A DNA stretch of 64,000 nucleotides, taken from positions 1 through 64,000 of the forward strand of contig NZ_MUXF01000005.1 in NCBI RefSeq assembly GCF_003063295.1. The letters are read 5' to 3'. The DNA is from Arcobacter lacus. GTDB lineage: Bacteria > Campylobacterota > Campylobacteria > Campylobacterales > Arcobacteraceae. The position numbers and the translations under genes were made by a program. The notes beneath the pieces are model-generated. The model saw nothing but the letters and a program-made list of their open reading frames with translations, was not told the DNA's origin and did no database searches. This document shows, one piece after another, positions 325 through 60,536 of the stretch (position 1 is its first letter; every line of letters begins with the position of its first letter).

Positions 325-1062
325 TTAAATTCCTGCACCATCAATAAAATAGTCATCTATTAAATCAAATTTTTGATTTAAGTCATTAAGATTTTCACTA
401 CTTATAATTGCTTTATCTTCAAGTAATTTTTCTAATAATTCAATTTTTTTGTTTAAATACTTAAATGCCTCCTTATCAATATCAGGTAAATCACTATGAG
501 TAAATTTTCCTGCATTATCATATTTTTTTATAACTTTTGCAGGAATCCCAACTGCTGTTGAATAATCAGGGACATCACTTATTACAACTGAATTTGCCCC
601 AACTTTACTACTCACTCCAATAATAATATTTCCTAAAATTTTTGCACCACTGCCAATAACACTATTTGATTTAACTGTTGGATGTCTTTTCCCTTTAGTT
701 AAACTTACTCCACCTAGTGTTACACCTTGATAAATTAAAACATCATCTTCAATAATAGTAGTTTCACCAATAACCACACCAATTCCATGATCAATAAAAA
801 CTCTTCTTCCAATTGTTGCAGCGGGATGAATATCAGTATTTGTTAAAAATTGGCTAATTCCACTATAAACTCTTGCTAATTTTTTAAAACCATTTACATA
901 AAATTTATTTGCTATTCTATGATTTATTATTGCCCAAACACCTGGATAATTAAAAAAGATTTCTAATCGTGAATTTAATGCTGGGTCATTGTTTTTTGGA
1001 ACATTAAAATCTTCTTTTATTTGTTCAAATAATTTTATATTTTTATTATTACTTATTTGCAT
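325..1062 (-). CDS. cysE: Serine O-acetyltransferase (EpsC/CysE type)
   Basis: The protein (245 aa) would transfer acetyl from acetyl-CoA to serine, giving O-acetylserine for cysteine synthases. A helical N-terminal part (about residues 25-75, with PGVWAIINHRIAN) precedes a left-handed beta-helix of hexapeptide repeats containing DIHPAATIG, FIDHGIGVVIGET and VTLGG, the usual catalytic and CoA-binding region. About 55 residues follow that may form a helical tail. The gene overlaps the upstream GGDEF/EAL gene by 14 bp and precedes cysK. Serine acetyltransferase is a known neighbour of family 2A encapsulin loci, which fits the shell and desulfurase genes just upstream. Confidence 0.93.
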   Translation of the reverse strand: MQISNNKNIKLFEQIKEDFNVPKNNDPALNSRLEIFFNYPGVWAIINHRIANKFYVNGFKKLARVYSGISQFLTNTDIHPAATIGRRVFIDHGIGVVIGETTIIEDDVLIYQGVTLGGVSLTKGKRHPTVKSNSVIGSGAKILGNIIIGVSSKVGANSVVISDVPDYSTAVGIPAKVIKKYDNAGKFTHSDLPDIDKEAFKYLNKKIELLEKLLEDKAIISSENLNDLNQKFDLIDDYFIDGAGI

Positions 1063-2299
1063 TTAGGTACTCTTTACCTATTTTTAAATCTTTTACACTT
1101 TTTGGCTCATCGAACCAATAACCTTGAAAATAATCAATATTTAATTCTTTACAAGTTTCAAAAATTTCTTTTGAAGAAACAAACTCTGCAACAGTTTTAA
1201 TACCAATTTTTTGTGCGAAAAACACTATTGCTTCAACAACTGCTTTGGCTGTTTTTGTTTTATTTATTTCTTGAATAATAGAACCATCAAGTTTTATAAA
1301 ATCAGCTTGAAGTTTTACTAAATACGAAAAATTTGAATATCCTGTACCAAAATCATCTATTGCTATTTTCACACCTAAATTTTTTACAATTTTAATGAAA
1401 GAGATAACTTCTTCAATATTATCAATACCTTCGCTCTCTGTTATTTCAATTGTTAAAAAATAGCCTATATCAAATTCATAAATTTTTTGTATTAAAAAAT
1501 CTACAACATCTTTTTCTAAAATGTCACTAATTGATAAATTTATACTAAATTCAACTTTTTTATCTTCAAAAAACTCAAAAGATTTTTGAATTACTTTTTT
1601 TGTAATTTCACTATATAAATTTATTTTTTTTGCTCTATCAATAAAAAAATATGGACTTACAACCTCATCTTTTGAGTTTTTCATACGAATTAATATTTCA
1701 TATTTTTTCTCATTTTGACTATTTATTGATTGTGCAAAAATCTCAAATTTGTCTTTTTTTATAGCTTGAATTATTTGTGTTTCCCAATACAACTCTTGCT
1801 CTATTGATAAAGAAGAAGGATTACAAATGTGATGTTGTTCATTATCATATACAACTAAATTATGTTTTATCACTCTTGTTTGTTTTAAAGCATATTCTGC
1901 ACAAAACAAAAGTTCTGCATAGTTTATTGCAACTCCTGCTCTTAATGGAATATAAACTTTATATCCATCTAATTCAATAGGAGAATATCCAAAATACCAA
2001 ATAATAGATTTTACAGCTTGAACAAATCTATCTTTTGAAACAGTTTCATCTGAAGTAGCTGCAAAAATATCTGCTCCTAAATAGTAAATTTTTCCATTTA
2101 AAAACTTATTTTCCAACCTTAAAGATATGATTTTTAGAATCTTTTCTCCAAAATCATATCCATAATAATGATTTATATTTCCAAATCCACTTATATCAAA
2201 TATTGCTACTTTATTAAACTCTTTTGCAATATTATCTTTTATAAAATCTTTTCTATTTGGAAATAATATTTCACTATCTAAATCTTCAAACTTTTCCAC
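1049..2299 (-). CDS. Degenerate GGDEF plus EAL domain protein (c-di-GMP phosphodiesterase or sensor)
   Basis: The 416 aa protein has no membrane segment or signal peptide. Residues about 30-160 resemble a GGDEF domain, but the signature is replaced by LGADIF, so cyclase activity is not expected. Residues about 175-405 form an EAL domain that keeps most catalytic positions: YEILIR at the EAL position, EITESE, IDDFGTGYS, the lysine in DFIKLDG, VAEFV and QGYWFDEP. It may therefore hydrolyse c-di-GMP. It starts with GTG at 2297-2299, 11 bp after the desulfurase stop, and overlaps cysE by 14 bp. A c-di-GMP enzyme between encapsulin cargo and cysE is unexpected; its link with sulfur metabolism is unknown. 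Confidence 0.85.
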   Translation of the reverse strand: MEKFEDLDSEILFPNRKDFIKDNIAKEFNKVAIFDISGFGNINHYYGYDFGEKILKIISLRLENKFLNGKIYYLGADIFAATSDETVSKDRFVQAVKSIIWYFGYSPIELDGYKVYIPLRAGVAINYAELLFCAEYALKQTRVIKHNLVVYDNEQHHICNPSSLSIEQELYWETQIIQAIKKDKFEIFAQSINSQNEKKYEILIRMKNSKDEVVSPYFFIDRAKKINLYSEITKKVIQKSFEFFEDKKVEFSINLSISDILEKDVVDFLIQKIYEFDIGYFLTIEITESEGIDNIEEVISFIKIVKNLGVKIAIDDFGTGYSNFSYLVKLQADFIKLDGSIIQEINKTKTAKAVVEAIVFFAQKIGIKTVAEFVSSKEIFETCKELNIDYFQGYWFDEPKSVKDLKIGKEYLNANK

Positions 2300-2310
2300 T
2301 TTTACTTCTT

Positions 2311-3762
2311 TTATAAATAACTATTTTTAAACTCTTTGATAGTTTTAACTAAAAAATCTATCTCTTCTTTTGTATTGTAAAAAGCAATAGATGGACGAAC
2401 TGTTGTTTCAACTCCAAATCTTCTTAAAATTGGTTGTGCACAATGGTGTCCAAATCTTAAAGCTATTCCTTTACTTGTAAGATATTCTCCAACTTTTGTT
2501 GTATCATATCCATCAAGAACAAATGATAAAACACTTGTTTTTTCTTTTGCTGTTCCTATTAATCTAAGACCTGAAATTTCACTCATTTTAGATATTGCAT
2601 ACTCTAAAAGTTCATGTTCATATCTATAAATATTTTCAATTCCAATTTTAGTAACATAATCAATTGCTGCTCCAAGTCCTACTGCATCAGCAATATTTCC
2701 TGTACCTGCTTCAAATTTATTTGGTGCAGCTTGATAAATAGTTTTTTCAAAAGTAACATCAGCTATCATATTTCCACCACCTTGATATGGTTGCATAATA
2801 TCTAAAAGCTCTTTTTTAGCATATATTGCACCAATTCCTGTTGGAGCAAATACTTTATGCCCTGAAAAAACATAAAAATCACAATCAAGCTCTTGAACAT
2901 CAACTTTTATATGTGATATTGCTTGAGCACCATCAATTAAAACTTTTACTCCATATCTATGAGCAATTTCTACTACTTTTTTTATAGGAACAATCGTTCC
3001 TAAAGCATTTGATACATGAGCAATTGATACTATTTTTGTTTTAGGAGTTATTAATCTTTCAAACTCATTTAGTAAAATTTGTCCATCATTATCAACAGGT
3101 ATAACTTTTATTTTTGCACCTATTTCTTGGCTTAATATTTGCCAAGGAACAATATTTGCATGATGTTCTAAATTTGAAACTATTATCTCATCATCTTTTT
3201 GCAAGTTAAATTTACCAAAACTATGTGCAATCAAATTTATAGCTTCTGTTGCACCTCTCACAAAAATAATATTGTTCTGACTAGGTGCATTTACAAAACT
3301 TGCTACTTTTTGTCTAGCCTCTTCATAAGCATCAGTTGCCCTTGCTGCTAATGTGTGAGCACCTCGGTGAATATTTGAATTTTCATGTTCATAAAAGTAA
3401 CTTATTCTATCTATTACACTTTTTGGTTTTTGCGTTGTTGCTGCATTATCTAACCAAATAAGTGGATAATTACCACTTACTTTTTCATTTAAAACTGGAA
3501 AATCTTTTCTTATAGCTTCAACATTGAATATCTCATAAGAGTTATTTTGTGGAACTATTTGAATATTTGAAAAAGTTTCAAAATTTGACACATCTTTATC
3601 TTCATAAAAATTTGTTTGAATAACTTTTTCATAATCAAACCCATCATTAAAAGTTGTATGTGGATTTGAATTAAATTCAGGAAATGCCTGATTTGCCAAA
3701 ACTTCTATTTGATTTTTAAAAAACTCTTCATCAAAATTTGGTAAATTATTGTGCGTAATCAT
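2311..3762 (-). CDS. Cysteine desulfurase, probable encapsulin family 2A cargo (SufS-like)
   Basis: The 483 aa protein is a class V aminotransferase-fold desulfurase that takes sulfur from cysteine onto an active-site cysteine, leaving alanine. The catalytic core starts near residue 84 (IRKDFPVL, then WLDNAATTQKP and NSNIHRGAHTLA). PLP is bound by the lysine of FSGHKVF, and the catalytic cysteine is probably in RFGHHCAQPI. The first 80 or so residues are an acidic, low-complexity extension absent from ordinary SufS (about 400 aa). It carries EVLANQAFPEF, similar to the LA-N-F type motif of family 2A encapsulin cargo. The gene overlaps the shell gene by 17 bp, has an SD TAGGAAAC, and so is probably translationally coupled. 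Confidence 0.92.
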   Translation of the reverse strand: MITHNNLPNFDEEFFKNQIEVLANQAFPEFNSNPHTTFNDGFDYEKVIQTNFYEDKDVSNFETFSNIQIVPQNNSYEIFNVEAIRKDFPVLNEKVSGNYPLIWLDNAATTQKPKSVIDRISYFYEHENSNIHRGAHTLAARATDAYEEARQKVASFVNAPSQNNIIFVRGATEAINLIAHSFGKFNLQKDDEIIVSNLEHHANIVPWQILSQEIGAKIKVIPVDNDGQILLNEFERLITPKTKIVSIAHVSNALGTIVPIKKVVEIAHRYGVKVLIDGAQAISHIKVDVQELDCDFYVFSGHKVFAPTGIGAIYAKKELLDIMQPYQGGGNMIADVTFEKTIYQAAPNKFEAGTGNIADAVGLGAAIDYVTKIGIENIYRYEHELLEYAISKMSEISGLRLIGTAKEKTSVLSFVLDGYDTTKVGEYLTSKGIALRFGHHCAQPILRRFGVETTVRPSIAFYNTKEEIDFLVKTIKEFKNSYL

Positions 3763-4690
3763 AGTAGTTTCCTACATCAACATCTTCTAAAACTGCTATT
3801 GCATCTTTTGATAAAATTACTGCTGAACAATATAGTGATAAAAGGTATGAACCAACTCCATTATTATCTATTCCTCTAAATTTTACAGATAATCCTCGTG
3901 ATTGTTCATTTGGTAAATTATTTTGGAATAATCCAACAACACCTTGTTTTTCATAACCTGTTCTAACTAATAAAATATTAGTTTTTCCAGCTTTTGATTT
4001 TGGCTCTTTTAATCCATCAACAAATAGTTTATTTGTAGGAATAATAGGAACTCCTCTCCAAGTTAAAAATGATGTTCCAAATAAAGTTATAGTTGCTGGT
4101 GGAACTCCTCTTCTTGTAGCTTCTCTTCCAAATGCAGCTATTGCTCTTGGATGTGCTAAGAAAAATGATGGTTCTTTCCAAACTTTTGTTAATAACTCAT
4201 CTAAATCATCAGGTGTTGGACTTCCAGTTCTACTTTGAACTCTTTGAGATTCATCAATATTATTTAATAATCCATAATCATCATTATTAAATAATTCGCT
4301 TTCTTGTCTCTCTTTTAAACTCTCAATTGCAAGTTTTAATTGCTCTTGAATTTGTTGTGTTGGAGAGCTATATAAATCTGACACTTTTGTATTTACATTT
4401 ATAATTGTTTGAATTGAGTTTAATTGATATTCTCTAGGGTTTTCTTCATAATCTACAAATCCTTCAGGAATTTTATTATGAATTTTTTGTGAACATAAAG
4501 TATCAAGAGGTGTATCTCCTTCTTTTACTTTATTTAATCTAAAAATCCCACTATCTAAAGATTTCCAATCAAGTAATCTTGTAACCCATCTTGGAGTTAA
4601 CGAATCAAAAACAGGTGTTGTTTTTACAACATCTGCTAAATTATATGCAGATTTTGCACTTAAACTTACTATTTTATTTTCCTCTGCCAT
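3746..4690 (-). CDS. Family 2A encapsulin shell protein (SrpI-like)
   Basis: The 314 aa protein matches the family 2A encapsulin (SrpI) type: an N-terminal arm with LSAKSAYNLADVVKTTP, then PRWVTRLLDW, and a HK97-like core with SPTPDDLDELLTKVWKEP, FFLAHPRAIAAFGREATRRG and WRGVPIIPTNKL, near the usual 310-325 aa length. In characterised relatives (Synechococcus SrpI) the shell self-assembles into an icosahedral compartment around a cysteine desulfurase, and the system responds to sulfur starvation. The next gene is that desulfurase, with a cargo-like N-terminal extension. The start ATG follows AGAGGAAAATAAA. No CBD insertion typical of family 2B is visible. Recognition is by sequence pattern, not by a search, but is strong. 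Confidence 0.93.
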   Translation of the reverse strand: MAEENKIVSLSAKSAYNLADVVKTTPVFDSLTPRWVTRLLDWKSLDSGIFRLNKVKEGDTPLDTLCSQKIHNKIPEGFVDYEENPREYQLNSIQTIINVNTKVSDLYSSPTQQIQEQLKLAIESLKERQESELFNNDDYGLLNNIDESQRVQSRTGSPTPDDLDELLTKVWKEPSFFLAHPRAIAAFGREATRRGVPPATITLFGTSFLTWRGVPIIPTNKLFVDGLKEPKSKAGKTNILLVRTGYEKQGVVGLFQNNLPNEQSRGLSVKFRGIDNNGVGSYLLSLYCSAVILSKDAIAVLEDVDVGNYYDYAQ

Positions 4691-4709
4691 TTTATTTTCC
4701 TCTTTTAAT

Positions 4710-5870
4710 TTAATATCTTGCCATTGTGTAATCTATATCATTTGCCCAAGATGTAATACCACCTTTTAGGCTATATATTTCACCTGTATAACCTGATTGT
4801 TTCAACTGTCTAATAATTTCAGCACTCATAAGACCTATTTTACAAATTATCACAGCTTTCTTAGAACTATCAAGTTCATCTTTTCTTCTTAATAATTGAC
4901 CAAAAGGTATTCCCTTTGAACCTTCAATTTTTCCTATTTGTAACTCATGTGGTTGTCTAATATCTATCAATTGAACAGGTCTTTTTTCATTTATTAGATT
5001 TTTTAAATCTATTGCACTTATCTCTTCTACTTCTATTCTTTCATCAGGTTTTTTCAGACCACAAAACTCTTCATAATCAATAAGTTCTGTTATCACTGGA
5101 TGTTCACTACATACTGGACATTTTTCATCTTTTTTAAGCTTCAACTCTTTAAACTGCATTTTTAGACCATCAAAAGCTAAAAGTCTTCCTTTTAAAACCT
5201 CTCCTACTCCTAAAATAAGTTTTATTGTTTCATTTGCTTGTATTGTTCCTATAATACCAGGTAAAATTCCTACTACTCCACCTTCCGCACAAGATGGAAC
5301 AAGTCCAACTGGTGGTGGTTCAGGATATAAACATCTATAACAAGGACCATCATAAGCATTAAAAACACTTGCTTGTCCTTCAAATCTAAAAATTGACCCA
5401 TATACAAATGGTTTTTTTAAAATAACACAAGAATCATTTACTAAATATCTTGTTTGAAAATTATCTGTTCCATCAACAACAATATCAAAATCTTTAATAA
5501 TATTTATTGCATTTTGGCTTGTCAATTTATCATTATGAGCAACAACTTTAACATTAGGATTTATAGCTTTTATTCTATCAGTTGCTGAAGAAATCTTAGG
5601 ACGCCCAATATCTTTTGTTGTATGTATAATTTGTCTTTGCAAATTTGATTCATCAACAATATCAAAATCAATTAATCCAATTGTTCCAACTCCAGCAGCT
5701 GCTAGATATAAAATTACAGGAGCACCTAATCCTCCTGTTCCTACAACTAAAACTTTTGCATTTTTTAGTTTTAATTGTCCTTCAAGTCCCACTTCTGGCA
5801 ATATTAAATGACGACTATATCTACTTATTTCTTCTTGAGATAATTTATCATACTTATCATCTTTAGCCAT
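4710..5870 (-). CDS. moeZ: MoeB/ThiF-type sulfur-carrier adenylyltransferase with rhodanese domain (MoeZ-like)
   Basis: The 386 aa protein has an E1-like adenylyltransferase domain (about residues 10-250) with the nucleotide-binding GTGGLGAPVILYLAAAGVG, the conserved R in ESNLQRQIIH, the YRCLYPEPPP loop and the CPVC zinc pair. A C-terminal rhodanese domain (about 285-386) has its active-site cysteine in IICKIGLMS. Such proteins adenylate the C-terminal glycine of a sulfur carrier and transfer sulfur to form a thiocarboxylate. The start ATG overlaps the stop of the carrier gene (TAATG), so the two are translationally coupled. The partner is thus most likely the CysO-like carrier; a role in molybdopterin or thiamine sulfuration is possible but not favoured here. 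Confidence 0.92.
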   Translation of the reverse strand: MAKDDKYDKLSQEEISRYSRHLILPEVGLEGQLKLKNAKVLVVGTGGLGAPVILYLAAAGVGTIGLIDFDIVDESNLQRQIIHTTKDIGRPKISSATDRIKAINPNVKVVAHNDKLTSQNAINIIKDFDIVVDGTDNFQTRYLVNDSCVILKKPFVYGSIFRFEGQASVFNAYDGPCYRCLYPEPPPVGLVPSCAEGGVVGILPGIIGTIQANETIKLILGVGEVLKGRLLAFDGLKMQFKELKLKKDEKCPVCSEHPVITELIDYEEFCGLKKPDERIEVEEISAIDLKNLINEKRPVQLIDIRQPHELQIGKIEGSKGIPFGQLLRRKDELDSSKKAVIICKIGLMSAEIIRQLKQSGYTGEIYSLKGGITSWANDIDYTMARY

Positions 5871-6145
5871 TACAATCCACCTGCAATAGATGGAACTAAA
5901 AGTATTTTATCATCTTCATAAACTCTCGTTTGTAAATTATCTAATGCTCTAATATCTTCTTCATTTAGATAAATATTTACAAAACTTCTTAGTTTTCCTT
6001 CATTTGTAAATAGATGATTTTTTAAATCCTGATATTTATCAACTAAATTTGATACAACATCAGATATATTTTCTCCACCTAAAATTATCTCAAAATCTCC
6101 ATTTGTAAATAATCTTAGAGCTGTAGGTATATAAACTTTTGCCAT
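5870..6145 (-). CDS. cysO: CysO-like ubiquitin-fold sulfur carrier protein with GG-Leu C-terminus
   Basis: The 91 aa protein is of the ThiS/MoaD family and closest in appearance to mycobacterial CysO: IPTALR near the start, FVNIYLNEEDIR in the middle and PSIAGGL at the end. The carrier would be turned into a C-terminal thiocarboxylate and donate sulfur for cysteine synthesis. The protein ends in GGL rather than the functional GG, so the last leucine should have to be removed first. The adjacent JAMM protease is the obvious candidate; similar trimming is known for Wolinella HcyS and Pseudomonas QbsE. A good AAAGGAG site precedes the ATG. Its place between protease and E1-like genes supports the assignment. 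Confidence 0.9.
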   Translation of the reverse strand: MAKVYIPTALRLFTNGDFEIILGGENISDVVSNLVDKYQDLKNHLFTNEGKLRSFVNIYLNEEDIRALDNLQTRVYEDDKILLVPSIAGGL

Positions 6146-6147
6146 TA

Positions 6148-6570
6148 TTAAACTCCTTTTATCTCTTCTTTTTCAAATTTTAATCTATCGTTTGATAATA
6201 CTGAAACTGTATAATCAATCACTTTTGCATCATAAACTGACACAATCAAATATGTATAAACAGGAAGTGCATGATCAATATCAAACTGAGAAGGTATTGC
6301 ATTATGATTTGGATGTGAATGATAAAATCCAACTATATCCAAACCATTTTTTAGAGCATATAGTTCTGTTTCCAAAATCTTTTTTGATGGAATTAGATAT
6401 CTATTGTACTTATTTTCATCTTCTCTTTCATTTGATAGTTCTAAAACTTCACTTACAGTTTTTTTTTCTTTTTCAAATTTACCTAAAAGAATACCACAAC
6501 ACTCATTTGGATAATCTTTCTTTGCATGTTCATTTATTTGCTCCATAAGATTTTTATTTAGCTCTATCAT
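6148..6570 (-). CDS. mec: JAMM/MPN metalloprotease, Mec+/HcyD-like
   Basis: This 140 aa JAB1/MPN protein has the zinc motif intact: ECCGILLG near residue 24 and HSHPNHNAIPSQFD (HxH, S and D ligands). Family members either cut the cysteine adduct from CysO-cysteine (Mec+) or remove extra residues from the tail of a sulfur carrier (QbsD, HcyD). Both reactions are plausible here, because the neighbour carrier ends GGL and CysM is upstream. I chose the ATG at 6568-6570, which overlaps the cysM stop as ATGA and has GGAAGAAG upstream. An in-frame ATG five codons earlier (6585) would give a longer overlap and is less likely. The carrier gene follows after only 2 bp. Confidence 0.9.
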   Translation of the reverse strand: MIELNKNLMEQINEHAKKDYPNECCGILLGKFEKEKKTVSEVLELSNEREDENKYNRYLIPSKKILETELYALKNGLDIVGFYHSHPNHNAIPSQFDIDHALPVYTYLIVSVYDAKVIDYTVSVLSNDRLKFEKEEIKGV

Positions 6571-7478
6571 AAATCTTCTTCCCATAAGCTATCGCTTAAA
6601 TATTTAAAACCACTATCACATAAAATAGTAACTACAACACTCCCTTTTGGTAATGTTTTTGCTAACTGCAATGCTGCATAAACATTTGCCCCAGAAGATA
6701 TACCAACAAATAATCCTTCTTTTCTTATTAATTCCAAAGTTGTTCTTCTTGCATCTTCAGTATCTATCTCAATAGTTTCATCAATCAATGAACTATCGTA
6801 AATCTCAGGTACTATTGTTGTTGCCATATGCTTCATTCCTTCTAATCCATGAAATGGTGAAGATGGTTGCATTGCAACTGTTTTTATATTTGGGTTTAAC
6901 TCTTTTAATCTTCTTGAGGTTCCTACAAAAGTTCCAGAAGTTCCCATTCCTGCTATAAAATGAGTAACTTTTTTTTCACTTTGTTCCCAAATTTCCAAAG
7001 CTGTTGAGTTATAGTGTGCTTTCCAATTGTTTTCATTGTTATACTGATTTGTATAATAATAGATATCTGGATTTTCCTCTGCTAACTCTTTTGCTTTAAT
7101 TAATGATCCATCAGAACTTAAAAGAGGATCTGTTTCAATTATAGTTGCACCAAAAGCTTTTAAAATTCTTTTTCTTTCAAAATTTGCATTTTTAGGTAAA
7201 GTTACACTAACTTTATAACCTAAATTTGCACCAAACATTGCATAAGCAATTCCTGTATTTCCACTTGTACTATCTAATAAAATCTTATCTTTTGTAAGTT
7301 TATTACTATTTATTGCTTCTAATATTATTGCTTTTGCGGCTCTGTCTTTTACTGATCCACTAGGATTTAAATATTCACATTTAGCATAAATACTTACATC
7401 ATTTAAATCTTTTGTTATTTGATTTAATTTTATTAGTGGCGTATTCCCAACTAAATCTAAAATCGTCTTATTTGCCAC
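6567..7478 (-). CDS. cysM: Cysteine synthase, CysM-like (PLP-dependent)
   Basis: The 303 aa fold-type II PLP enzyme has IYAKCEYLNPSGSVKDRAA with the PLP lysine, LDSTSGNTGIAYA as substrate loop, GMGTSGTFVG as phosphate-binding loop and GISSGANVYA near the C-terminus. The general reaction is addition of sulfide or a thiocarboxylate to O-acetylserine or O-phosphoserine. The arrangement CysM, JAMM protease, CysO-like carrier mirrors the mycobacterial cysM-cysO-mec cluster, so the natural sulfur donor may be the carrier thiocarboxylate. The gene starts 21 bp after sbp. The acceptor (acetyl- or phosphoserine) cannot be read from sequence alone. Confidence 0.92.
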   Translation of the reverse strand: MANKTILDLVGNTPLIKLNQITKDLNDVSIYAKCEYLNPSGSVKDRAAKAIILEAINSNKLTKDKILLDSTSGNTGIAYAMFGANLGYKVSVTLPKNANFERKRILKAFGATIIETDPLLSSDGSLIKAKELAEENPDIYYYTNQYNNENNWKAHYNSTALEIWEQSEKKVTHFIAGMGTSGTFVGTSRRLKELNPNIKTVAMQPSSPFHGLEGMKHMATTIVPEIYDSSLIDETIEIDTEDARRTTLELIRKEGLFVGISSGANVYAALQLAKTLPKGSVVVTILCDSGFKYLSDSLWEEDL

Positions 7479-7499
7479 TTCTTTTCCTTTTAATTTATG

Positions 7500-8579
7500 T
7501 TATTTATAAATTAAATCGAATGTTCCACCATCATCAAAGTGTACTTTTTGTGCATTTGCCCAACTTCCAAAAACATCATCAATTTTAAATAATTCAAGTT
7601 TTGGGAATATTTTTAAATCTTCTTTATTTACTAATTCAGGAAGACTTGGTCTATAGTAGTTTTTAACAGCTATTTCTTGTCCCTCTTTTGAATAAAGATG
7701 ATTTAAATACTCAGTTGAAACAGTAAATGTTCCTCTTTTTTTAGCATTTACATCAACAACAGTAACAGGTGGTTCAGCTAATATTGAAATAGATGGAACA
7801 ACTATTTCAAATTCATCTTTTCCAAGCTCGTTTATTGCTAAAAATGCTTCATTTTCCCAAGCTAAAAGTACATCTCCAATTTTTCTTTGTACAAATGTGT
7901 TTGTAGCTCCTCTTGCACCTGAATCAAGAACTGGAACATGTTTTAAAAGTTTTGAAACATACTCTTTTGCTTTTTCATCAGCAACTTTATATTTTTGTGA
8001 GTTAAAATCAATTTTGTCTAAACTTCCAAGTTCTTGTTTTAAACCATAAGCATAAGCTGCTAAATAGTTCCATCTAGCACCTCCTGAAGTTTTTGGATTT
8101 GGAGTTATAACTTCAATACCATCTTTAATTAAATCATTCCAATCTTTAATCCCTTTTGGATTTCCTTTTCTAACTAAAAAAACAATAGTAGAAGTATAAG
8201 GCGATGAATTGAAATCTAATTTTTTTTGCCAATCTTTAGGAATTAAATGTCCTTTTTCACCAACTGCATCAATATCATAAGCAAGTGCCAAAGTTACAAC
8301 ATCTGCTTTTAATCCATCAATTACTGCTCGTGCTTGTTTTCCAGAACCACCATGTGATTGTTTAATTGTTACATCTTGTCCTGTTTTTTCTTTCCAGTAT
8401 TTTGAGAATGCTTTATTATATTCTTCATAAAGTTCTCTTGTTGGATCGTATGAAACATTTAAGATTTCAATTGATTTTTTTGAAGCTTCTGCTTTTTTAT
8501 CGTATGCAAAATCATCTGCAAAACCTAATGTTGAAATTAGCAATGATGCTAATGCAATGTTTTTTATATTTTTTATCAT
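7500..8579 (-). CDS. sbp: Periplasmic sulfate-binding protein
   Basis: The 359 aa protein has a signal peptide ([21 protein letters not shown]) and sulfate/thiosulfate-binding protein motifs: [62 protein letters not shown] and AWENEAFLA. It would capture sulfate in the periplasm for an ABC importer. It is the first long gene of the sulfur operon, preceded by a cysteine leader peptide (8649-8696) and the promoter/operator at 8740-8788. No cysT, cysW or cysA permease/ATPase genes follow, so its transporter must be encoded elsewhere or shared. Confidence 0.93.
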
Positions 8580-8604
8580 TTTATTTTCTCTTTCTTAGAT
8601 ATTA

Positions 8605-8650
8605 TATACACTAAATGTGTGATAATTAAAGATTTAAAAAAATCTCACCT
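8605..8650 (-). repeat. Leader element copy 1, upstream of sbp
   Basis: This 46-nt stretch lies between the leader peptide and sbp. As RNA it can form two small hairpins: AGATTT/AAATCT with a TTTT loop, then ACAC-ATTTA-GTGT. It differs from copy 4 at 23645-23690 at only two positions; shorter relatives lie at 11880-11925 and 19115-19152. All four sit immediately upstream of genes for periplasmic binding proteins. Whether it acts as RNA structure or as a protein-binding palindrome cannot be decided from sequence. Confidence 0.7.
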
Positions 8651-8696
8651 ATTTCTTCTTTTTATTTTCTATTTCTTTACACATGTCGCACATCAT
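8649..8696 (-). CDS. Cysteine-containing leader peptide, 15 aa (MMCDMCKEIENKKKK)
   Basis: A short reading frame starts with two ATG codons after the site AAAGGATAAAAA and ends with TAG at 8649-8651. Cysteine codons are at positions 3 and 6. An independent copy upstream of the sulfonate operon (23700-23747) has the same length, the same first six residues and the same ribosome-binding site, but a different second half. That pattern suggests selection on the MMCDMC start. I infer a regulatory leader peptide: slow translation of the Cys codons in cysteine shortage would change folding or translation of the downstream leader. No experiment supports this here. Confidence 0.72.
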   Translation of the reverse strand: MMCDMCKEIENKKKK

Positions 8697-8739
8697 TTTT
8701 TATCCTTTCCCTTTAGATGATATTTTTAAATTTAATCTA

Positions 8740-8758
8740 TCACCTACTAAATTGGTGA
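8740..8758 (-). promoter_or_regulatory. Predicted Rrf2-regulator operator of the sulfur/encapsulin operon
   Basis: The site TCACCTACTAAATTGGTGA is an inverted repeat TCACC-N9-GGTGA. It begins one base downstream of the -10 element, so it overlaps the expected transcription start. Near-identical sites occupy the same place in the sulfonate promoter (23790-23808) and in the Rrf2 gene's own promoter (24346-24364). A bound repressor would block transcription when sulfur is sufficient; that direction of control is inferred. Confidence 0.8.
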
Positions 8759-8759
8759 A

Positions 8760-8788
8760 ATTATAATAATAAAAAAAATATTTGTCAA
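8760..8788 (-). promoter_or_regulatory. Consensus sigma-70 promoter of the sulfur/encapsulin operon
   Basis: Read on the minus strand, TTGACA (8783-8788) and TATAAT (8760-8765) are both perfect consensus hexamers separated by 17 bp. The operator lies directly downstream. Such a strong promoter next to an operator is typical of a gene set kept off by a repressor. The remaining region 8789-8946 up to the next gene is AT-rich and I see no gene in it, only a short repeated AGAATTTATACTA motif near 8890 and 8938. Confidence 0.85.
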
Positions 8789-19114: not shown

Positions 19115-19152
19115 ATACACTAAATGTATGAATATTAAATACTTAAAACTCG
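19115..19152 (-). repeat. Leader element copy 3, upstream of second ssuA
   Basis: A partial copy of the 46-nt leader element occupies the short gap between the amidohydrolase-like gene and ssuA, partly overlapping the upstream stop codon. It keeps the palindrome ATACACTAAATGTAT (plus-strand reading) exactly as in copy 4, while the AAATCT hairpin arm is decayed. It was probably carried along when the ssuA gene was duplicated. Confidence 0.6.
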
Positions 19153-20009: not shown

Positions 20010-20747
20010 TTAGATATAGTACATATTTCCAAGAACTCTTGATAATATATTTGCTTCTAATTTAGCAAACTCTTGAGTTCCACGTTCTCTTTGTCTTGGT
20101 AAATTTATTTTTAAATCAAGTGTGATTTTTCCACATTCGATTAAAACAACTCTATCACCTAAAATAACTGCTTCACTAACATCGTGAGTTACTAGTAAAA
20201 CTGTAAATTTATGCTCTTGCCAAATTTTTTCAATTAGCGTTTGCATTTCAATTCTTGTTAGTGCATCAAGTGCCCCTAAAGGTTCATCAAGAAGCAATAA
20301 TTTTGGTTTATGTACCAATGCTCTTGCTAATGCAACTCTTTGTTTTTGACCACCTGATAGATTTGCTGGCCACTCATTTGCTCTTGCACTAAGTCCTACT
20401 TCTCTTAAAGCTTCTAGTGCTAAATCATAAGATTCTTTTGGTAAACCTAAAGCTACATTTTCTATTACAGTTTTCCAAGGAAGTAATCTTGAATCTTGAA
20501 ACATTATTCTTGTATTTGGATTTACTCCTAAGGCTTCATCATCATCTAAAAATAGTTTTCCTGAACTTAATTTTTCAAGTCCACCAACTAATCTTAAAAA
20601 AGTACTTTTTCCACAACCACTTCTTCCTACAATTGATATAAATTCACCAGAATCAACTTTTAAATTAAAATCACTCAATACAACTCTATCACCAAAACTT
20701 TTCGTTAAGTTATTTGTTTTTATTTCTATTCCACTTAAATTACTCAT
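20010..20747 (-). CDS. ssuB: Aliphatic sulfonate ABC transporter ATPase (first set)
   Basis: The 245 aa ATPase shows Walker [14 protein letters not shown]-loop [10 protein letters not shown], signature [15 protein letters not shown], Walker [13 protein letters not shown] and H-loop THD, in the pattern of SsuB. It overlaps the permease stop by four bases (ATGA), so translation is coupled. With the permease and SsuA it forms the first sulfonate importer. Confidence 0.93.
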
Positions 20748-21529
20748 TTTTGATAACCTTTATGCCATTTTAAATATCTTTTTTCTAACACTGAAGCAAG
20801 AATATCTGAGATTTTTCCTAAGACTGCATATAATAAAATTCCTAAAACCATTATGTCAGTTTGTAAAAATTCTCTTGCATTCATTGTCATATAACCTATT
20901 CCTTCACTTGAAGCTATTGTTTCTGCTACTATTAAATAAAGCCACATAAAACCTAAAGACATTCTAAGTCCAACTAAAATCGATGGCATTGCTCCTGGTA
21001 AAATAATATTTTTAAACAATCCATAAGAACTTAATCCATACACTTTTCCCATTTCAATCAAATCCTTATCAACACTTCTTAATCCATGAAAAGTGTTTAA
21101 ATAAATTGGAAAAAATACTGCTAAAGCTAATAAAAAAATCTTACTAAACTCTCCAATACCAAACCAAAGAATAACTAATGGAACTAAAGCTAATAAGGGA
21201 ATTGTTCTAATCATTTGTATAGTTGAATCAAGTAAATTTTCTGCCAATTTTGATAAACCAGTAATAAATCCTAAAATAAATCCAATACTTCCTCCAATAA
21301 TTAATCCTAATAATGCTCTTTGTAAACTAACCAAAAAGTGATGAATTAACTCTCCATTTGCTGTAAGAGTGACTCCTGCACTTATCACATCAAGAGGTGC
21401 TGGCATAACTCTTGAAGAAACTAATCCACTTTGAACTACAATTTGCCAAACAACTAAAACTAAAACTGGAATTAACCAAACAATAAAATGGTCAATTAAA
21501 TTTACTTTTATTTTATTTATGAGTTTCAT
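20744..21529 (-). CDS. ssuC: Aliphatic sulfonate ABC transporter permease (first set)
   Basis: The 261 aa protein has six hydrophobic segments and the SsuC pattern: [12 protein letters not shown] near the start, [22 protein letters not shown] and the EAA loop [24 protein letters not shown]. It forms the membrane channel for sulfonates. It overlaps the first ssuD by 17 bp and the ATPase gene by four. Confidence 0.93.
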
Positions 21530-22667
21530 CGTTTAAAACCCCACCAAATGTTTCACCTTCTGTAATCCCTGATAATTTGTTTTTTACTCTATTAGGTAAC
21601 AAAGGGAATACTAATTCTGCAAATTTATATGCTTCTTCAAGATGAGGATAACCAGAAAATACAAATGTATCAACTCCCATATCTGCGTATTCAGTTATTC
21701 TTTCAACTACAATTTGTGGACTTCCAACAAGTGCAGTTGCACAACCTTCTCTTGCAAGTCCTATTCCTGCCCATAAGTTTGGACTAATTTCAAGTTCTTC
21801 TCTTGATCTAGCTTTTCCACCATTTGTTAAAGCTGTCATTCTTTTCTGTCCAATAGATTCTCTTTTTTCTAAAACTTTATGATGTTGTTGTATTGTTTCA
21901 TCATCAAGTTTACTTATTAATTTTTCAGCTACACTCCAAGCTTCTTCTTCAGTTTCTCTTACAATAACATGAAGTCTTACTCCAAATCTTAGTATTCTTC
22001 CATATTTTGAAGCCCTTTTTTTAAGATCTTCAATTTTTTCTTTAACATCTTGTGGACGTTCACCCCAAGTTATATATAAATCAACTTTTTGTGCAGCTAA
22101 TTCTCTTGCTTCATTTGATGAACCACCAAAAAACAAAGGAGGAGTTGTTTTTTGAACTGGTGGATATAGAAGTTTTGCATTTGTTGTTTTATAAAACTTT
22201 CCATCAAAATTTACAAGTTCTTTTTTATAACTTGATTTCAAAATATCTCTCCAAACATCTACAAACTCTGCTGCAGCTTCATATCTTTCTTCTGGGTTTT
22301 GATATAAACCATCACCTTCAAGTTCCGTTTTATCTCCTCCTGCAACTAAATTAATAGCAACTCTTCCATTTGAAAATCTATCAAGAGTTGCTGTCATTCT
22401 AGCTGCTAGTGAAGGTTGTAAAAGTCCTGGTCTAAGTGCTACTAAAAACTTTAAGTTTTGTGTAGCTCCTATTAAACTTGAAGCAACAACCCAAGGGTCT
22501 TCACATAATCTTCCTGTTGGAATCAAAACACCATCAAATCCCAAATTATCAGCTGCAACTGCAATTTGTTTTGAGTAATTAAAATCAATTATTCTTGAAC
22601 CACTTTTTTCACCTAAATATTGACTATCTCCAAAAGTAGGTATAAACCAAAATATATTTAAAGCCAT
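21513..22667 (-). CDS. ssuD: SsuD-like FMN-dependent alkanesulfonate monooxygenase, first paralogue
   Basis: The 384 aa enzyme keeps the active-site cysteine (GRLCEDP), [12 protein letters not shown] with the arginine and histidine, [12 protein letters not shown] and [24 protein letters not shown]. It would desulfonate alkanesulfonates with FMNH2 supplied by a reductase encoded elsewhere. It follows the first ssuA by 12 bp and has AAAGGTAATAA before its ATG. The three SsuD copies are alike enough to be recent relatives, but differ in the residues around position 55 and at the C-terminus. Confidence 0.92.
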
Positions 22668-22679
22668 TTATTACCTTTC

Positions 22680-23624
22680 TTATTTACTATTTTCAGGTAT
22701 CCAAACAACACTTTTTATATCTAGTTTTTTTGGAATTAATTTTAAATCATAAAATGTATCAGCTATTTCTTGTTGATCTTGTATGATTTTAGGTGTCAAA
22801 TATTGAGTTGTAAATACAGCTCTTTTATGTGCAAGTTCTAATGCTTCTACATCTAAACCATTTATAGTTGAAAGTGTTTTTGCTGTTCCAATTGGATCTT
22901 TTGTAAGTAATTCATCAACTTTTTTTATTTCATCAAAAACTATATCAATAACCTCTTTGTTTTTAATATAACTCTCTTCCACTAAATAAAACTGATAGTT
23001 ATTTACTAGATTTACACCATCTCTTAAATTCTTAGCACCAATTTTTAACTCCGCTGCTGCAAAAAATGGATCCCAAATTACCCAAGCATCAACACTTCCT
23101 TTTTCAAAAGCTGCTCTTGCATCTGCTGGAGGTAAAAATGTAGGTTGAATATCACTATATTTTAAACCAGCTTCTTCTAAAGCTTTTACTAATAAATAAT
23201 GAACATTTGAACCTTTATTTAAAGCAACTTTTTTACCTTTTAAATCAGCAACCGTTTTGATAGGAGAATCTTTTGGAACTATGATTGCTTCAGCTTTTGG
23301 AAAAGCCGATTTATATCCTATATATTTAATTTTTGCATTCACTGCTTGTGCAAAAATAGGTGGTGTTTCTCCAACTGTTCCTAAATCAACACTTCCAACA
23401 TTCAATCCTTCAAGTAATTGAGGACCAGCAGGAAATTCTATCCAAGTTACTTTAACACCAATTGTTTTTAATCTTTTTTCTAATGCACCAGAATCTTTTA
23501 ATAATATAAATCCTGGGTCTGATTTTTGATACCCAATTCTTAGTTCTTCAGTTTTTGAAGCTCCAAAACCTAATACTGGAATAATTGCTAATATCGCAAA
23601 TATTTTTTTAACTATTTTTTTCAT
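22680..23624 (-). CDS. ssuA: Aliphatic sulfonate-binding periplasmic protein, first SsuA
   Basis: The 314 aa protein has a signal peptide ending near GFGA and the SsuA signature stretches [50 protein letters not shown] and [15 protein letters not shown]. It is the first long gene of the sulfonate operon. AGGAAAAATTT precedes the ATG, and the leader element plus leader peptide lie upstream, as for sbp. It would deliver sulfonates to the SsuBC transporter. Confidence 0.93.
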   Translation of the reverse strand: MKKIVKKIFAILAIIPVLGFGASKTEELRIGYQKSDPGFILLKDSGALEKRLKTIGVKVTWIEFPAGPQLLEGLNVGSVDLGTVGETPPIFAQAVNAKIKYIGYKSAFPKAEAIIVPKDSPIKTVADLKGKKVALNKGSNVHYLLVKALEEAGLKYSDIQPTFLPPADARAAFEKGSVDAWVIWDPFFAAAELKIGAKNLRDGVNLVNNYQFYLVEESYIKNKEVIDIVFDEIKKVDELLTKDPIGTAKTLSTINGLDVEALELAHKRAVFTTQYLTPKIIQDQQEIADTFYDLKLIPKKLDIKSVVWIPENSK

Positions 23625-23644: not shown

Positions 23645-23690
23645 TATACACTAAATGTATGATAATTAAAGACTTAAAAAAATCTCACCT
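23645..23690 (-). repeat. Leader element copy 4, upstream of first ssuA
   Basis: This copy matches the one before sbp (8605-8650) at 44 of 46 positions, although the coding sequences downstream are unrelated. It contains the same two potential hairpins (AGAYTT/AAATCT type and ATACATTTAGTGTAT). Conservation between two different operons suggests function or recent copying. Confidence 0.7.
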
Positions 23691-23699
23691 TATTGCTTA

Positions 23700-23747
23700 T
23701 TAAATTAATTCTACATTTTTAGAATATCTACACATATCGCACATCAT
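23700..23747 (-). CDS. Cysteine-containing leader peptide, 15 aa (MMCDMCRYSKNVELI)
   Basis: This short frame starts ATGATG after AAAGGATAAAAA and ends with TAA at 23700-23702. It shares the first six residues, length and ribosome-binding site with the peptide before sbp, while residues 7-15 differ completely. Cysteine codons stand at positions 3 (TGC) and 6 (TGT), as in the other copy. I infer a cysteine-sensing leader peptide for the sulfonate operon. Confidence 0.72.
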   Translation of the reverse strand: MMCDMCRYSKNVELI

Positions 23748-23789
23748 TTTTTATCCTTTCTTTTAAGGTGATTTATATCATAAAATCTA

Positions 23790-23808
23790 TCACCTACTTA
23801 ATTGGTGA
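23790..23808 (-). promoter_or_regulatory. Predicted Rrf2-regulator operator of the sulfonate operon
   Basis: TCACCTACTTAATTGGTGA differs from the sbp-operon site at one position and lies at the same distance from the -10 element. It should place the sulfonate operon under the same regulator, whose gene is located just upstream. Confidence 0.8.
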
Positions 23809-23809
23809 A

Positions 23810-23856: not shown

Positions 23857-23890
23857 ATAAAAAAGGCATTTAAAATACTCTTTAAATACC
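23857..23890 (-). terminator. Rho-independent terminator of the Rrf2 gene
   Basis: On the minus strand a ten-pair stem, GGTATTTAAA with TTTAAATGCC, is followed by TTTTTTATTATT. It starts inside the last codons of the Rrf2 gene. It should separate the regulator transcript from the sulfonate operon just downstream. Confidence 0.75.
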
Positions 23891-24340
23891 CAATCCACCG
23901 ATAAATTCTTCTTTATAAACATCTTCTTTCGTAACAGGAGCTTGTCCTAAACAAGAAGCTATTGTTGTTTTATCAAGAATTTGTGCTGTTAAATTTCTAA
24001 TATTTAAAAATACTCTTCTAAAATAACACTTTCCTTCTTGGCTACATGGTTCATAATTTGATACCGAAACACAAGATATCATAGCAATCATACCTTCAAA
24101 ATATCTTATTACTTCACCTAAAGTTATTTCATCAGAACCTTTTGCTAAAACATAACCACCATAACGACCAGGAATACTCTTTACCCAACCTGCTCTATTC
24201 ATTTCAAGCATAATATTTTCTAAAAATCTTCTTGGAACATCAACTGATTCCGATAGTTCTCTTATAGAAATTAAATTGTCAGCTTCTGCTATTGCAAACA
24301 AAGCTCTTAACGCATAATCTGTCTTTTTTGAAACTTTCAT
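23882..24340 (-). CDS. Rrf2-family transcriptional regulator (IscR/CymR-like)
   Basis: The 152 aa protein starts with the Rrf2 pattern MKVSKKTDYALRALFAIAE, a winged helix with VPRRFLENIMLEMNRAGWVKSIPGRYGGY, and a linker with three cysteines, spaced C-x8-C-x5-C, where IscR has C-x5-C-x5-C. A fourth cysteine follows near residue 130. An Fe-S cluster or a thiol-based sensor is therefore possible. I chose the ATG at 24338-24340, preceded by AGGTGATAAAT; a GTG three codons earlier lies inside the operator. It is the obvious candidate to bind the three TCACC-N9-GGT sites, including its own promoter, and to control sulfur genes. Confidence 0.9.
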   Translation of the reverse strand: MKVSKKTDYALRALFAIAEADNLISIRELSESVDVPRRFLENIMLEMNRAGWVKSIPGRYGGYVLAKGSDEITLGEVIRYFEGMIAMISCVSVSNYEPCSQEGKCYFRRVFLNIRNLTAQILDKTTIASCLGQAPVTKEDVYKEEFIGGLGI

Positions 24341-24345
24341 ATTTA

Positions 24346-24364
24346 TCACCTACTTAATTGGTAG
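24346..24364 (-). promoter_or_regulatory. Predicted operator in the Rrf2 gene's own promoter
   Basis: TCACCTACTTAATTGGTAG matches the sulfonate-operon site except in the last two bases. The site also covers the AGGTGA ribosome-binding sequence of the regulator gene. This points to autoregulation. Confidence 0.78.
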
Positions 24365-24365
24365 A

Positions 24366-60418: not shown

Positions 60419-60435
60419 GAGTACTAAAAGTACTC
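60419..60435 (-). terminator. Hairpin at the 3' end of SRP RNA
   Basis: GAGTACT/AGTACTC with an AAA/TTT loop is a perfect seven-pair stem. On the minus strand it is followed by TTTATATC and could end the SRP RNA; on the plus strand it lies just behind the helix-turn-helix gene. Confidence 0.6.
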
Positions 60436-60536
60436 CTCTCCAGATACCCAAACACAACACTAAAAAAGGTGCCTTGCTATGTTCCCATCCTGGGGCGGTG
60501 TCTTTAGAAATGCTTGAAAGGGTCTAAAGAAGAGCA
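60431..60536 (-). ncRNA. ffs: Signal recognition particle RNA (small bacterial type)
   Basis: On the minus strand the segment CAGG-ATG-GGAA-CAT-AGCA matches the universal SRP domain IV hairpin: GGAA tetraloop, closing pairs, and the symmetric loop CAGG/AGCA that binds Ffh (E. coli CAGG-TCC-GGAA-GGA-AGCA). The ends also pair: CTCTTCTTTAGA with TCTGGAGAGGAG, allowing G-U. It is the only GC-richer spot in this area. The boundaries are approximate; a -10 TATAAT at 60582-60587 would put the transcription start upstream of the mature 5' end. Confidence 0.88.

Follow-up and report, generated by a model that had tools for sequence, protein, structure and literature searches.

Attenuators of the classical trpL and leuL type have a short frame with regulatory codons, placed between the promoter and the operon in a leader RNA that can form alternative helices. 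Translated leaders of this general kind are described in Campylobacter jejuni, where LeuL, TrpL and MetL are translated and where ribosome profiling also shows translation of CJsORF19, a leader with the sequence MMYQMR that lies 5' of Cj0772c, the gene for the binding protein of a D-methionine transporter (PMC11955535). In mycobacteria, cys leaders have been predicted that have runs of Cys codons close to the stop and lack an evident terminator (PMC1262725), and leaderless poly-Cys short ORFs are reported to be attenuators that respond to cysteine (Canestrari et al., 2020, as cited in PMC13236596). Our literature search returned no publication describing a cysteine leader from Arcobacter.

The window, which is the 64,000-nucleotide stretch of Arcobacter lacus DNA analysed here, contains two short frames that begin with the residues MMCDMC, each followed by an operon of sulfur genes (Table 1). 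We suggest, on the basis of sequence comparison, that this leader probably makes the ribosome a sensor of sulfur starvation, through which expression of the sulfur-uptake operon is adjusted. The arrangement has in common with the trpL and leuL type a short frame with a ribosome-binding site 5' of an operon, regulatory codons within it for the amino acid that is supplied, and the possibility of alternative helices. It differs in that the frame lies not in segment 1 of the leader but between segments 3 and 4, and in that no canonical terminator was detected. With the CymR regulon it shares an Rrf2-family regulator beside sulfur genes; we know of no leader peptide that forms part of the CymR system.

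The preliminary description compared the first of these frames with the mycobacterial leaders, and the likeness holds to the extent that both are short frames with Cys codons before cysteine or sulfur genes. The nearest described counterpart, however, is the Met-rich MMYQMR leader of C. jejuni, which comes from the same phylum, has Met at positions 1, 2 and 5 and precedes the binding-protein gene of a sulfur-compound transporter. That leader differs from the Arcobacter one in having no Cys, only six codons, a strong hairpin without a U-tract and no comparable operator. The MMYQMR leader occurs in two genomes from a single genus, which belongs to another family of the order, and there it precedes a strong hairpin that has no T-run; by inspection this hairpin and the flanks differ from those of the MMCDMC leaders, and no homology between the two was found. 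Together, the two leaders suggest a recurring M-M-x-x-M design in the phylum. The leaderless mycobacterial ORFs have their Cys runs close to the stop, whereas the Arcobacter leader starts from a Shine-Dalgarno sequence and mixes Cys3 and Cys6 with Met. Given these differences in start type and Cys placement, and with no relationship found between the two, the earlier proposal that the Arcobacter device is an invention separate from the mycobacterial one is plausible.

Table 1. Features of the two leader regions and related elements in the window.
Feature	Position	Strand	Remarks
Sulfur/encapsulin operon	325-8579	-	3' of leader copy 1
Putative promoter P2	8601-8622	-	operator-like TCACACATTTAGTGTA, 8607-8622; -10 TATAAT, 8601-8606
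Inverted repeat AGATTTTTTTAAATCT	8630-8645	-	kept with a G-U pair in copy 2
Segment 4 and T-run, GGTGAGATTTTTT	8637-8649	-	near-invariant 3' of the leader ORF in relatives
Leader ORF MMCDMCKEIENKKKK, copy 1	8649-8696	-	ATG to TAG, 15 codons and stop
Shine-Dalgarno AAAGGA of MMCDMCKEIENKKKK	8703-8708	-	6 nt 5' of ATG
Segment 3, ATCATCT	8715-8721	-	complements segments 2 and 4
Segment 2, AGGTGAT	8739-8745		right half of operator TTCACCAATTTAGTAGGTGAT
Putative Rrf2 operator TTCACCAATTTAGTAGGTGAT	8739-8759	-	over likely start site; motif recurs at rrf2 start, other P1 sites and cysT leaders
Promoter P1, TTGACA-17-TATAAT	8760-8788	-	12/12 match to sigma-70 consensus
Third P2-type motif	19116-19131		before another sulfonate-binding-protein gene, without a leader peptide
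Sulfonate operon	20010-23624	-	SsuA, alkanesulfonate monooxygenase, permease, ATPase; 3' of leader copy 2
P2 operator-like motif, copy 2	23647-23662	-	motif match
Segment 4 and T-run, copy 2	23677-23689	-	
Leader ORF MMCDMCRYSKNVELI, copy 2	23700-23747	-	15 codons; sulfonate operon
Segment 3 of copy 2, ATCACCT	23766-23772	-	
Putative Rrf2 operator, copy 2	23789-23809	-	motif match
Rrf2-family regulator	23882-24349	-	Pfam Rrf2
Putative autoregulatory operator of rrf2	24346-24365		
Bacterial small SRP RNA	60434-60530	-	RF00169

The two frames are as the preliminary description gave them: a 15-codon frame with a ribosome-binding site and Cys codons 3 and 6, and a second, similar peptide before the sulfonate operon. 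Their presence and position, the ribosome-binding site, the conservation of Met and Cys and the linkage to a regulator gene are read directly from the sequence. MMCDMCKEIENKKKK has no Cys codons other than these two, Met or Cys occupies five of the first six codons, and its TAG stop overlaps the GGTGAG element. Residues 1-6 of MMCDMCRYSKNVELI are identical and its tail differs; the two leaders align with 84% identity over about 260 bases. The operons are also of the kinds named earlier, sulfur/encapsulin and sulfonate; the one behind copy 1 encodes a sulfate-binding protein, cysteine synthase, JAB, ThiS, ThiF-rhodanese, a type 2A encapsulin shell, a cysteine desulfurase-type aminotransferase and CysE. 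When up to three mismatches are allowed, the 18-nt MMCDMC pattern has two sites in the window, each an exact match, where 0.08 would be expected; a search of the whole genome at up to two mismatches yields these two and no others. Four or more Met or Cys among codons 2-6 are found in no further ATG frame of the window, and in none from 60 Markov-shuffled windows.

Leaders in relatives were sought without using the peptide, by searching 104 genomes of the family for the GGTGAGATTTTTT pattern plus the operator and then reading the matches. Every leader recovered through the 3' motif alone contains an MMCDMC-type frame. Such frames before sulfur genes, which the preliminary description had proposed to look for in other Arcobacter genomes, are present in 24 of the 31 genomes from the genus and, outside it, in G060, which belongs to another genus, and a phylum-wide pattern scan added one more (G290). 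Apart from G060, matches to GGTGAGATTTTTT outside the genus were mostly coding or chance; apart from G290, other phylum matches of the shape AGGA-ATGTGYNNNATGTGY lay in apparent gene interiors or at unrelated sites. MMSHMC matches in other genera fall in the interior of a longer protein and were not counted as leaders. Across 84,980 named genomes, the pattern scan returned Aliarcobacter and Arcobacter names and one Sulfurospirillum MAG, with further matches in Planctomycetales, Paenarthrobacter and Anaerolineales; by a rough estimate, one or a few chance matches are expected at this scale. The frame is conserved over about two dozen species, with variable tails.

We compiled a codon table of 30 leaders; these sequences are related, so the counts are of copies and not of independent events. 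All 30 have ATG at codons 2 and 5, invariant at all three bases. Codon 3 encodes Cys in 27 (TGC in 21, TGT in 6; AGT in two of the others and TAC in one), and codon 6 is TGT in 26, with four other codons in one leader each. Seven leaders have lost one of the two Cys, and all 30 keep at least one. The preliminary description had staked its reading on conservation of the Cys codons among relatives, and conserved they are. Met2 and Met5 are more constant still, however, so that sensing of both sulfur amino acids is the more fitting reading of the peptide. The leader peptide proposed earlier is well supported by its conserved frame, variable tails and constant position before sulfur-transport genes. 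The first gene 3' of the leader encodes a sulfate-binding protein in most cases or a sulfonate-binding protein, and one or the other is found behind all 30. One variant (L085, in G005) reads ATA-ATG-TGT-AAT-ATG-TGT; the first ATG is lost and the frame continues as MCNMC.

Mean pairwise identity between leaders is 0.89 over codons 1-6 and 0.49 over codons 7-12. It is 0.61 in the Shine-Dalgarno stretch, where all listed leaders have an AAGG or AGGA core 5' of the ORF, 0.38 further 5', and 0.90 in the GGTGAGATTTTTT-AAATC block. The spacing from ATG to GGTGAG is 42-58 nt, and the stop falls between -16 and +17 relative to GGTGAG; where the stop overlaps this element, the spacing is 44, 47 or 50, in steps of whole codons. 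We considered whether the 18 bases might be conserved as DNA or RNA, with the frame incidental. This would fit the full invariance of codons 2 and 5, but it sits poorly with the synonymous changes at codons 3 (TGC/TGT) and 4 (GAC/GAT), with amino-acid changes that always leave at least one Cys, with the retained Shine-Dalgarno sequence and with length changes that stay in frame, and we regard it as very improbable. The peptide might instead act as a product, a CxxC metal- or thiol-binding micropeptide, rather than through its translation. Although C-D-M-C has the form of a CxxC motif in most copies, the seven leaders without one Cys still keep Met2, Met5 and the other Cys, the tails, of 2-14 residues, have little in common, and the frame always lies in cis before sulfur-transport genes; a role of this kind would be highly surprising.

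The leaders fall into two classes. In those with P1, segment 2 (AGGTGAT or AGATGAT) complements segment 3 (ATCACCT or ATCATCT), 5' of the Shine-Dalgarno sequence. In the second class the frame lies directly behind rrf2 with its own P2-like promoter, and segments 2 and 3 are missing while GGTGAGATTTTTT is kept. The energy of the 2:3 duplex beats that of shuffled linkers (p<0.05) in 14 of 19 P1-class leaders, and one of its pairs is A-U, G-C or G-U in 4, 3 and 1 of the eight distinct rows of an alignment that was cut to fit; the pairing statistic, reached by 39 of 500 shuffles, gives modest support overall. For pairing between segment 3 and segment 4 (GGTGAG), the statistic is no better than shuffles (183 of 500). 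The loop of a 3:4 helix would be about 70 nt long, and this helix is the minimum-energy fold in only four of the 19 leaders folded. We therefore describe the alternative helices 2:3 and 3:4 as weakly supported. Alignment folding picked a pairing of TTCACC (segment 1) with GGTGAG, which we discarded, given that segment 1 is located at or 5' of the likely start site. A local hairpin inside the frame, ATGT-GCG-ACAT, is broken by the synonymous GAT variants. The inverted repeat AGATTTTTTTAAATCT is kept in one leader (L062) that is missing the long T-run. An Rfam scan of the window gave only the SRP RNA above gathering score, and a known riboswitch was rejected because there was no Rfam match.

Neither window leader contains a canonical intrinsic terminator; there is only the T-run behind GGTGAG. 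It may be, then, that the leader is translated and senses Met and Cys, and that ribosome occupancy alters mRNA stability, Rho access or readthrough of the T-run with no intrinsic terminator involved. The rrf2-linked leaders, which have the frame and GGTGAG but neither segment 2 nor segment 3, are in keeping with this, as are the hairpin without a U-tract 3' of the C. jejuni-type MMYQMR leader and the mycobacterial cys leaders, which likewise lack evident terminators (PMC1262725) and for which control of this sort has been suggested. The near-invariance of the T-run behind GGTGAG, together with a clear terminator in the related cysT leaders, suggests termination instead, and we find this version of translational control rather doubtful.

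The cysT (sulfate permease) leaders, seen in G000:C17 (L103) and at loci L084, L086, L087, L088 and L104, share this P1 and operator; next, between P1 and P2, segment 2, segment 3 and T7 form an evident terminator. This intrinsic terminator, TAGATGATTATTTTAATCATCTATTTTTTT, lies a few tens of bases past the likely start and is followed by a second operator-bearing promoter; a strong P1 thus ends at once in a terminator. The layout is conserved, and the G005 variant contains a G-U pair.

At copy 1, P1 lies about 65 bases 5' of the leader frame, and MMCDMCKEIENKKKK is followed by GGTGAGATTTTTTTAAATCTTTAATTA and then by TCACACATTTAGTGTATATAAT, in which an operator-like motif and a -10 hexamer make up the putative P2. 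The P2 form of the motif occurs at 8607, 19116 and 23647 and, allowing one mismatch, nowhere else in the genome. A relative of the sulfonate-binding-protein gene at 19116, in G005 (L050), does have an MMCDMC leader. Because the T-run lies about 24 nt 5' of the P2-like operator in three different contexts, the conserved T-run may be part of the downstream promoter P2. The sites of the shared motif, among them the start of rrf2, the two leaders and the cysT leader, argue that it is the operator of the neighbouring Rrf2 protein. For this protein, which satisfies the Rrf2 superfamily model, the best equivalog is CymR, with a score of 70.6, below the cut-off of 195.

The conserved 3' block could accordingly be read as P2 plus an Rrf2 operator, with control exerted mostly by Rrf2 at P1 and P2 and with the leader frame minor at most. 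The P2 motif does occur without GGTGAG at 19116, 5' of the sulfonate gene, and in the rrf2-linked class 5' of the leader ORF, and the operator motif is found at rrf2, P1 and cysT. Such a scheme leaves unexplained, however, the 89% identity in codons 1-6, the invariant Met2 and Met5, the kept Cys, the Shine-Dalgarno sequence and the narrow range of distances from ATG to GGTGAG, and we consider it unlikely.

The reading that we prefer, and to which we give about an even chance, is that the ribosome translates the MMCDMC frame as a cis-acting leader peptide, through which the supply of sulfur amino acids is sensed and starvation-dependent antitermination at the T-run is controlled. In RNA made from P1, under the putative Rrf2/CymR-like operator, the frame would lie between segment 3 and segment 4 with its T-run. 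When charged Cys-tRNA, and Met-tRNA, is scarce, the ribosome would be held at codons 2-6, where it would block 3:4 pairing; the local 2:3 hairpin would then stay, and RNA polymerase would continue beyond the T-run and enter the sulfur operon. With Cys and Met both in good supply, the ribosome would complete the frame and leave, and P1 transcripts would end more often at the T-run. In this scheme we infer translation, stalling and the action of the T-run as a terminator, as well as the direction of control, which we take from operon biology. If translation does control the operon, this would be a Campylobacterota sulfur-amino-acid leader that reads Met and Cys in six codons and works with a CymR-like regulator, and control of the encapsulin/cysteine-desulfurase operon would be testable by reporters with changed codons.

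A more elaborate form of this proposal, which we offer tentatively as a possibility, is a dual Met and Cys leader that would report the total supply of sulfur amino acids from inside a long-range terminator loop, with an operator half-site doubling as a hairpin arm, in a module that would move between genera with its own Rrf2. The Rrf2 gene is present in all 24 leader genomes of the genus. Among 70 other genomes, it occurs in three: G060, whose leader reads MMCHMC, G290, whose leader reads MMCDMC, and G017, a genome 54% complete with no leader within the stretch read. In Sulfurospirillum sp. Kmv13 (L124/L136), which belongs to another family, rrf2, an MMCDMC leader and a sulfate-binding-protein gene are found together, and the regulator is 82% identical; judged from these sequences, the occurrence of the rrf2-leader module in this organism looks like transfer.
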